The position numbers were made by a program, and so were the translations under genes. A DNA stretch of 64,000 bases from Allobosea sp. Lineage in GTDB: Bacteria > Pseudomonadota > Alphaproteobacteria > Rhizobiales > Beijerinckiaceae. Under the pieces are notes generated by a model that searched no databases, was not told the origin of the DNA, and saw nothing but the letters and a program-made list of their open reading frames with translations. This document shows positions 38,583 to 40,552 of this stretch, in pieces (position 1 is the first letter of the stretch; every line of letters begins with the position of its first letter). The DNA lies in contig NZ_JAFKFX010000025.1 in the NCBI RefSeq assembly GCF_017308075.1, forward strand, positions 124,001-188,000, read 5' to 3'.

Positions 38583-38713
38583 GCGCGGTCGCTCCCTTGC
38601 AAGGATTCCGGCGGATTGATAGCGACCGGGGCGGCAAGAGGCCAGCGCCGATCCGCTTGCGGATCGTGGCGTCCTGTCTGCCGAGGCAAGCGGGCCAAAT
38701 TGTGAGGGTACGG

Positions 38714-39271
38714 ATGACCGAAGCGGAAACGCCGGAGGATCTCTGGGTCTTCGGCTATGGCTCGCTGATCTGGCGACCGGGCTTTGATTTCGTCGAGCGG
38801 GCCGGAGCACGCCTGCACGGCTTCCATCGCTCGCTCTGCATCTATTCGCATGTGCATCGCGGCACGCCCGAGACACCCGGCCTGGTGCTGGGGCTGGATC
38901 GCGGCGGCATCTGCCGCGGCGTCGCCTTTCGCGTGCCGGTCGACCAGGCCGCGGAAACCATCGATTATCTGCGAGCCCGCGAGCAGGCGACCGCGGTCTA
39001 TCTCGAAAGGCGGCTCGCCATCCGCCTCGACGACGGGCGGCGCCTGAATGCGCTCACCTATATCGCCGACCGGGCCCACGGCCAGTATGCCGGCCGCTTG
39101 CCGGAAGCGGCGGTGCTCGGCTTCGTACGGCAGGGCAAGGGCGTCTCAGGCGAGAATCCGGACTATGTCCGGCGCACCCAGGAGCACCTGCATGAGATGG
39201 GCATCCACGACCCGCTGCTGACCCACCTCGTCGCCGAACTCGACAAGAGCGCGGGTCCTGCCTCGACCTGA
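38714..39271 (+). CDS. ChaC-like gamma-glutamylcyclotransferase
   Basis: 185 aa. DLWVFGYGSLIWRPGFDF near the N-terminus is the ChaC signature with the YGSL substrate loop. It is followed by RGICRG-type VAFRVP, and YLERRLAIRL holds a Glu that may be catalytic. Family members degrade glutathione to 5-oxoproline and Cys-Gly in the cytoplasm. The ATG at 38714 follows GAGGG by a few bases. It is divergent from DUF2125 and converges with the SOS-box gene, with only four bases between stops. Confidence 0.88.
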   Translation: MTEAETPEDLWVFGYGSLIWRPGFDFVERAGARLHGFHRSLCIYSHVHRGTPETPGLVLGLDRGGICRGVAFRVPVDQAAETIDYLRAREQATAVYLERRLAIRLDDGRRLNALTYIADRAHGQYAGRLPEAAVLGFVRQGKGVSGENPDYVRRTQEHLHEMGIHDPLLTHLVAELDKSAGPAST

Positions 39272-39275
39272 GCCT

Positions 39276-39662
39276 TCAGGCCTCGGGCATCAGATCGGCG
39301 AGCGCGGCGCGCCGGCTCGCGCCGTCCTCTGCCAGCAAATGCACATGGATTTCGCAGGCACCGGCCATGGCGGCCGCGTCGCGCCAACGGGTCAGCGCCG
39401 CATCGATGCCGAAGGCTCCGCTGTCGCGCGCCGCGACGATCGTCCGCTCCGGCGAGACGGCGAGCAGCACGGCATCGGTGAAATTCAGCGCATGCCCGTC
39501 CTGCACGGCAAAGACCGAGGCGACATAGCGCCGCCCCGAGCGGCCCCGCCAGGCCGTGAAGCGCCGTTCGGCCAGTTGCGCCGCACCGCGCAGCGGCGCC
39601 TCACGCGCGGTCCGCACCGGGCTATCCTCGCAAGGGCCGGCCAGAAGAGCCAGAGCAGCCAT
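39276..39662 (-). CDS. hypothetical protein behind a LexA-like operator
   Basis: 128 aa, family not recognised. It has no membrane span and no signal peptide. Small residues and Arg dominate; RRFTAWRGRSGRRYVASVFAV and FTDAVLLAVSPERTIVAARD suggest one compact alpha/beta domain. The Shine-Dalgarno is strong (AAGGAGG). It is transcribed alone and converges with the ChaC-like gene. Four GAAC/GTTC half-sites in the promoter suggest control by LexA as part of the DNA-damage response (inference). It is also close to plsC on the same strand, separated by a 59-base gap that holds the operator. Confidence 0.75.
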   Translation of the reverse strand: MAALALLAGPCEDSPVRTAREAPLRGAAQLAERRFTAWRGRSGRRYVASVFAVQDGHALNFTDAVLLAVSPERTIVAARDSGAFGIDAALTRWRDAAAMAGACEIHVHLLAEDGASRRAALADLMPEA

Positions 39663-39664
39663 CG

Positions 39665-39696
39665 GTTCCTCCTTTGTTCCAGAACAAAATCAGAAC
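39665..39696 (-). promoter_or_regulatory. double LexA-type box (GAAC/GTTC, 7-base spacing)
   Basis: Read on the plus strand: GTTC at 39665, GTTC at 39676, GAAC at 39682, GAAC at 39693. Each pair has seven bases between half-sites, the alphaproteobacterial SOS box. The array is symmetric about 39680/39681. A TTGACA (-35) lies at 39710-39715 on the minus strand, so the boxes cover the -10 and start region. Confidence 0.65.
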
Positions 39697-39721
39697 ATAG
39701 TGACGCTGCTGTCAAGTTCAA

Positions 39722-40504
39722 TCAGCCATTGCGCGTCGCTTCCTGCCGCGGACTGACAGGAGCCGGCACGCCGAGGCGGGCGAGTTCGGCCCGGCCCTCG
39801 CTGACCAGACGGTCGGTGGCGCTCTCGATCTGCTCCTGCAGCAGCATGTGGAAGGCCTTCTTGTCCATGCCGGGCTGGATCGCCGGCAGGATCTCGACGC
39901 GGATCGTCCCCGGGCGGCGCAGAAAGGAGCGCCGCGGCCAGAACAGGCCGGCATTGAGCGCGACCGGCACGCAGGGTACGCCGAGCTCGCCATAAAGATG
40001 GGAAACCCCGAACTTGTAGGCGGGCGGGGCTCCGACGGGGCGACGCGTCCCCTCCGGGAAGATCAGCAATTGCCGCCCGTTCTGCCCGAGCTCGACCTTG
40101 GCCCGGCGCGTCGCCATCTGCAGCGCGCGGCTGCCGGCGCTGCGATCGACCGGGATCATCTTCATCTTCAGCAGCGCCCAGCCGAAGAAGGGGAGCCAGG
40201 TCAGCTCGCGCTTCAGGATGTAGACGGGGTTCCGGAACACCGTGATCAGCGCGAAGGTCTCCCAGGCCGACTGGTGCTTCGCCGCCATGATGATGCCGCC
40301 GGGCGGAATGTTCTCGATACCGCTGATCTCGCAGCGCGTGCCGACGATCACCCGCATCAGCCAGAGCGAGCTGCTCGCCCAATTCAGGGCGACGCCGAGC
40401 AGGAAGCGCTTCGGCAGCACCATGGTCACCATGGCGCAGACCAGCCAGAAGGCGAGGTTGAGGTAGAAGGCGATATTGAAGAGGAGCGAGCGGAGCACGA
40501 GCAT
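39722..40504 (-). CDS. plsC: 1-acyl-sn-glycerol-3-phosphate acyltransferase family protein
   Basis: 260 aa with a hydrophobic N-terminal anchor (about 2-32). The acyltransferase block I reads AAKHQSAWETFAL, i.e. His followed by Glu at the fifth place rather than the more common Asp. FPEGTRRPVG is block III, and VPVALNAG is block IV. It makes phosphatidic acid or acylates a related lysolipid. The ATG at 40504 is preferred to TTG 40513. It lies in the run ftsE-ftsX-ydcF-plsC, a conserved order in this group. Confidence 0.85.
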   Translation of the reverse strand: MLVLRSLLFNIAFYLNLAFWLVCAMVTMVLPKRFLLGVALNWASSSLWLMRVIVGTRCEISGIENIPPGGIIMAAKHQSAWETFALITVFRNPVYILKRELTWLPFFGWALLKMKMIPVDRSAGSRALQMATRRAKVELGQNGRQLLIFPEGTRRPVGAPPAYKFGVSHLYGELGVPCVPVALNAGLFWPRRSFLRRPGTIRVEILPAIQPGMDKKAFHMLLQEQIESATDRLVSEGRAELARLGVPAPVSPRQEATRNG

Positions 40505-40552
40505 GCGGGGCAAGAACCTCGCCGGCGCGCGCCCGTCAAGAGCACCGCGGCC

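Follow-up and report, generated by a model that had tools for sequence, protein, structure and literature searches.

In a 64,000-nucleotide stretch of the Allobosea sp. genome (contig NZ_JAFKFX010000025.1, positions 124,001 to 188,000; "the window" below means this whole stretch), a gene for a protein of 128 residues is preceded by two putative operator boxes for the SOS repressor LexA. Both boxes sit between an exact TTGACA and the start codon of the gene (Table 1). They are separated by 2 bp in a mirror-symmetric arrangement, GTTC-N7-GTTC back to back with GAAC-N7-GAAC, just as an earlier note on this DNA had described them.

Table 1. Features of the 128-residue gene and its promoter (positions in the window)
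Feature	Position	Strand	Basis and remarks
Coding sequence, 128 residues	39276-39662	-	Open reading frame and orthologues; putative LexA-box gene whose product is probably catalytically degenerate and GIY-YIG-derived
W-x-G-x-S-G-x-R-Y beta hairpin, residues 35-52	39507-39560	-	Best conserved element, together with the E-x-H-x-H strand
Degenerate GIY-YIG core (predicted), residues 65-124	39291-39470	-	AlphaFold2 model and alignment to GIY-YIG relatives
LexA box 1 (putative)	39682-39696	-	GTTC-N7-GTTC, GTTCTGATTTTGTTC
LexA box 2 (putative)	39665-39679	-	GAAC-N7-GAAC, GAACAAAGGAGGAAC; on the plus strand GTTCCTCCTTTGTTC; covers the Shine-Dalgarno sequence
-35 hexamer TTGACA	39710-39715	-	Exact, from sequence
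Probable -10 hexamer TGATTT	39687-39692	-	Within the spacer of box 1; placed by its 17-nt spacing to TTGACA
Shine-Dalgarno sequence AGGAGG	39668-39673	-	Within box 2; from sequence
Start codon	39660-39662	-	

The two boxes are the only matches to GTTC-N7-GTTC in the window. The earlier note had put the number of chance matches at about two per window, which is too high, as dinucleotide shuffles give an expectation of 0.81. It also called two abutting matches with a -35 unlikely. As to the pair itself, none of 300 first-order Markov sequences as long as the window (mean 1.04 matches each) had two matches starting 15-20 bp apart. It is the closeness of the two boxes, not their number, that is unusual. 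The array had also been said to span the promoter from the -10 to the Shine-Dalgarno sequence behind a perfect TTGACA. The TTGACA is there and AGGAGG lies inside box 2; a mechanical consensus scan of positions 39200-39800 returned no sigma-70 promoter, the exact TTGACA being followed by no -10 element that satisfied the scan. AGGAGG is retained in most Bosea-type orthologues and altered in, for example, L025, L027, L028, L037 and L038.

Excerpts of two studies give GTTC-N7-GTTC as the LexA operator motif of Alphaproteobacteria (PMC3323433, PMC8565304). The genome of the window encodes a LexA with a DNA-binding domain and a peptidase S24 domain (C15:113103 onward), and a refined form of the motif, GTTCNNNWTNTGTTC, occurs 14 times genome-wide against no copy of its reversed control, with box 1 among the 14. 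Boxes of this type stand upstream of recA (GTTCTTTTTTTGTTC), ssb, rmuC and lexA itself, and less perfect ones precede comM and dnaB, which upholds the description of the array as LexA-like. A scoring matrix was derived from 68 boxes that belong to relatives in other genera and applied to 45 of the 122 own-genome copies of the bare motif. Box 1 came joint fifth with 21.1 and box 2 eleventh with 18.9, whereas the copies at dnaB, comM and lexA scored lower, at 16.8, 16.4 and 12.8. With regard to its operator, the LexA of its genome, the likeness of its box to those of core SOS genes and the conservation of the box, the points examined here, the 128-residue gene looks in every respect like a member of the alphaproteobacterial LexA regulon, sharing with it the operator type, which is conserved with its orthologues, and the genome-wide motif. 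It differs by the back-to-back double box found in part of the family and by a product outside Pfam and NCBIfam, and it is not named in the excerpts of the two studies.

Some further boxes in the same genome are worth recording in their own right. In L081 (C28:3200-7300) a LexA-type box, GTTCTTATTTTGTTC, at 2071-2085 lies about 300 bp upstream of a minus-strand open reading frame (2-1774) that matches the Cas9 alpha-lobe (Pfam, E 2.2e-6); the box also overlaps a small open reading frame on the opposite strand, and it would be unusual for a Cas9 locus to be under damage control. Another pair of GTTC-N7-GTTC boxes placed back to back, pointing outward and 1 bp apart, occupies 1984-2014 of L083 (C35:28200-32200), upstream of an open reading frame of 115 residues that looks secreted by eye. 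Two tandem boxes in the same direction (L079, C15:88000-92100, at 2053-2088) are flanked by an open reading frame that resembles DNA polymerase III alpha by eye and by an EamA transporter gene, and a top-scoring box GTTCTTATTTTGTTC at 1958-1972 of L082 (C34:35200-39200) stands beside an open reading frame of 112 residues, another candidate SOS gene.

Of 297 genomes of the order, 134 contain the gene family, as do 75 of 119 from the taxonomic family. A sample of 385 genomes across the class yielded only 6 with it, two of which are the genome of the window and one from its taxonomic family. For the order-wide count, 90 of the 134 loci were taken, namely that of the window and 89 of the 133 others, and exact matches in either orientation were sought up to 400 nt ahead of the conserved core. 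A box was found at 63 of the 90 loci, and the reversed control at none. In a later check of 20 loci from the taxonomic family, which were the best-scoring further matches rather than a random draw, all 20 had a box and one had the reversed control; 17 of them were new, L303, L304 and L305 being taken as the same loci as L040, L041 and L043. L041 had been scored as lacking a box when 150 nt were looked at, and has one when read further (as L304). Together with the 38 of 38 Bosea-type promoters considered below, these counts show a box, though not always the full array, to be conserved with the orthologues, a point that the earlier note had raised for the array.

TTGAC lies 5-30 nt ahead of a box in 47 of the 63 box-bearing loci, and 13-15 nt ahead of a forward box in 40 of the 63; the reversed word falls within 40 nt in 4 of the 63. 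The first two spacer positions favour T (39 of 68 boxes) and A (37 of 68), which is where a -10 element would begin, so that LexA would cover the -10 itself. Among the 58 forward boxes of the family, 39 are followed within 1-3 nt by an ATG (for example in L161, L163, L166 and L178), for which reason many relatives probably make a leaderless, LexA-controlled messenger. On a tree of 106 rows, the presence or absence of the box requires 5-7 changes against shuffled means of 26-31; this tree is built on few columns with 40 of 103 inner branches open, it leaves out L180 and L183, and it carries L041 under the wrong label. The small number of changes suggests an old origin of LexA control in the family: it was either ancestral with later losses, or an early gain in part of the family. 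The family also occurs on viral contigs of IMG/VR (17 loci, L240-L256), several of which have a common N-terminal stretch before VREERL. An exact box lies within 300 nt in only 2 of these 17 loci, and the phage-borne copies seem mostly outside LexA control.

In the Bosea-type orthologues the double box can be followed through its losses. Among 38 promoters, counted without L026 and L042, whose contigs start within the gene or only just upstream of it, ten have both boxes, 19 only box 1, nine only box 2, and none has neither; box 1 is intact in 29 and box 2 in 19. These promoters are closely related and far from independent. Back-to-back pairs recur in L307, by its code of the same genus (3 bp apart), and in L317 (2 bp apart). 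In another taxonomic family, L147, L149 and L150 have such a pair with a gap of 4 bp. Elsewhere the box occurs in just one of the two orientations. The pattern suggests that the two boxes back each other up, and turnover of the repressor site through a two-box stage would be its simplest reading. The double box would then offer a natural series for how repressor sites shift along a promoter.

Neither the 128-residue protein nor its family is matched by any Pfam or NCBIfam model, and to that extent the proposal of a new SOS function made in the earlier note is supported. No Pfam GIY-YIG match was found at E 0.1 in 48 diverse members, the window protein included. When a fragment of 104 residues was searched against 200 genomes of the phylum, no match resulted, which is uninformative as genomes matched by alignment were missed too. 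None of the literature matches listed, from open-licence sources exclusive of RegPrecise, names the family, and the gene may already stand elsewhere as an unnamed LexA target. In the AlphaFold2 model the core is laid out as two strands, a helix, the E-x-H-x-H strand and a D-L helix, and E104, H106, H108 and D123 are invariant or nearly so in the 48 members.

The link of this core to GIY-YIG nucleases runs through a set of bridging relatives. P0001 (L257:3001-3366), encoded on a plasmid of Bradyrhizobium barranii with the annotation GIY-YIG nuclease, belongs to the family; read from 18 codons before its annotated start, so that the hairpin is included, it matches 92 of 297 genomes at 1e-6 or better (best 6.6e-19), the window's own genome giving no match. 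Against PDC-S14, a candidate defence family, P0001 also gives weak matches (PADLOC, E 1.5e-4). The bridging set of eight consists of P0001 and seven of ten fetched loci; L292 was left out for want of a real match, and L296 and L297 as family-type sequences without the active site. The seven carry the GIY-YIG active-site letters, most with the W-x-G-x-S-G hairpin, and in the full set the hairpin tryptophan and SG glycine are found in 7 of 8. The GIY tyrosine, YIG glycine, arginine, histidine and glutamate are present in 8 of 8, a count that reflects the choice of sequences, and the YIG tyrosine in 7 of 8, with phenylalanine in one. None of the eight reaches the Pfam GIY-YIG cut-off. When profiles were compared with hhalign, the family matched the bridging set at 99.4% (score 119; decoys at most 22.4), and the bridging set matched true GIY-YIG domains at 88.5% (score 35.7; decoys at most 18.6), each against 60 column-shuffled decoys. 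Descent of the family from GIY-YIG domains is supported through this bridge.

The catalytic residues have not been kept. An alignment of 100 family members shows the YIG tyrosine in none (phenylalanine or tryptophan in 29), the GIY tyrosine in 41, the arginine in 10, the histidine in one and the glutamate in 33; at least three of the two tyrosines, arginine and glutamate occur together in none, and the window protein lacks all four. As this is no longer a GIY-YIG active site, we call the protein a degenerate GIY-YIG protein and not a GIY-YIG nuclease. Its tie to the GIY-YIG superfamily (the UvrC and GrxS16 N-terminal domains and the small GIY-YIG proteins) is firmer by sequence, through descent by way of the bridge, than by the structural lead towards that fold; the W-x-G-x-S-G hairpin, E-x-H-x-H and D-L are conserved in place of the lost residues. 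Cho of Escherichia coli likewise combines a GIY-YIG domain with SOS control. Cho, however, is an active nuclease, whereas the present family has neither an intact active site nor a curated family match. In an excerpt of one source, cho is a uvrC homologue, cited as encoding a second endonuclease of excision repair (PMC5521853).

The reading that we favour is that the gene encodes an SOS-induced, catalytically dead GIY-YIG module that has retained the scaffold of the domain and would bind DNA or a repair partner without cutting, and we regard it as probable. Within it, the LexA control of the gene is strongly supported by the comparative evidence, and a non-cutting binder is the most likely molecular activity of the protein. 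LexA on box 1 would cover the -10 element, and a second LexA dimer, or the alternative use of box 2, would cover the transcript start and the ribosome-binding site. Upon DNA damage, RecA stimulates the cleavage of LexA, and the promoter would thereby be freed. The product would then bind DNA that is damaged, nicked or branched and leave it uncut, or bind a repair protein, and in some relatives a tail motif may tether it to the sliding clamp.

Several observations weigh against this reading. The bare motif is weak evidence because its genome-wide enrichment is mild (122 copies against 70 of the reversed pattern), and two matches per window are not unusual by number alone, because 16 of 100 shuffled windows reach at least two. 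Caution is called for because the Shine-Dalgarno sequence overlaps the second half-site of box 2, and this half-site is kept even where box 2 is otherwise broken (L011, L013). An exact box is lacking at 27 of the 90 order loci; in 23 of these the best matrix score does not rise above the best of 20 shuffles, while L116, L119, L124 and L127 exceed it, L119 with a near-box. Finally, when the family was set directly against UvrC and small GIY-YIG domains in hhalign, the values were 0.1-0.7%, within those of the decoys, so that the GIY-YIG link rests on the bridging set.

A wider scenario can be put forward only tentatively: an order-wide SOS pseudo-nuclease may have lost its cutting site and kept LexA control, and may now serve as a damage-induced binder of DNA or the replisome, with a clamp tail gained at either end according to lineage and with operator turnover still ongoing. 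If a dead nuclease under damage control is what this family provides, it would represent a non-enzymatic SOS function, and an unstudied part of the damage response would become testable. The box lies upstream at most of the loci examined in this large order, and no Pfam or NCBIfam model describes the family.

Among the alternatives, the one that survives best, though still unlikely, is a client of the sliding clamp: the protein would slow or remodel replication in the SOS response, and its GIY-YIG core would be a scaffold. Proteins that bind the beta clamp carry QLxLF-type motifs. A motif of this kind, Q-x-[DSN]-L-[FLW], was found in the tails of 18 of 132 family proteins and in the core of none (at most 3 in 200 tail shuffles). 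Fifteen of the 18 are Bosea-type proteins with the motif at the N-terminus, and three others have it at the C-terminus. QLNLL, QxDLF, QxSLDF or DLF without Q occurs in 37 of 40 Bosea-type N-termini. These tail motifs are a hint of where the protein may act. However, no such motif is present in the window protein, in L001 (its nearest relative) or in L038, 114 of the 132 proteins have no Q-type motif, and the Bosea sequences are near relatives, so their counts are not independent.

An active nuclease under LexA control that processes damaged DNA with a rebuilt active site, for example E-x-H-x-H plus the aspartate, is improbable as well. GIY-YIG ancestry, the near-invariance of E104, H106, H108 and D123, and the persistence of single catalytic positions (GIY tyrosine, arginine, glutamate) are what one would expect of it. 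On the other hand, the YIG tyrosine is gone from every aligned member, no member retains three of the four residues and the window protein retains none, and two histidines on one strand could be structural.

A role in nucleotide supply, as a regulator of a B12-dependent ribonucleotide reductase (NrdJ), seems very doubtful. Of 89 non-Bosea loci, 32 have a ribonucleotide-reductase-like open reading frame upstream (one query frame was confirmed by Pfam), and these genes are a second hint, weaker than the tail motifs. Bosea-type loci sit behind an acyltransferase gene instead, and the linkage is stronger in members without a box (16 of 27) than in those with one (16 of 62). That the boxes are chance matches or sites of another repressor is hardly credible: the bare motif is common and shuffled windows do yield two matches, but the contrasts with reversed controls (63 against 0 of 90 loci, 20 against 1 of 20, and 14 against 0 copies of the refined motif) and the losses in the 38 Bosea-type promoters, which always leave one box intact, speak against it.

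In the window, a ChaC-like gene (38597-39271) follows downstream on the opposite strand, and the acyltransferase gene (39722-40513) lies upstream on the strand of the 128-residue gene. The nearest named locus is that of Bosea sp. WAO, at 93% identity.
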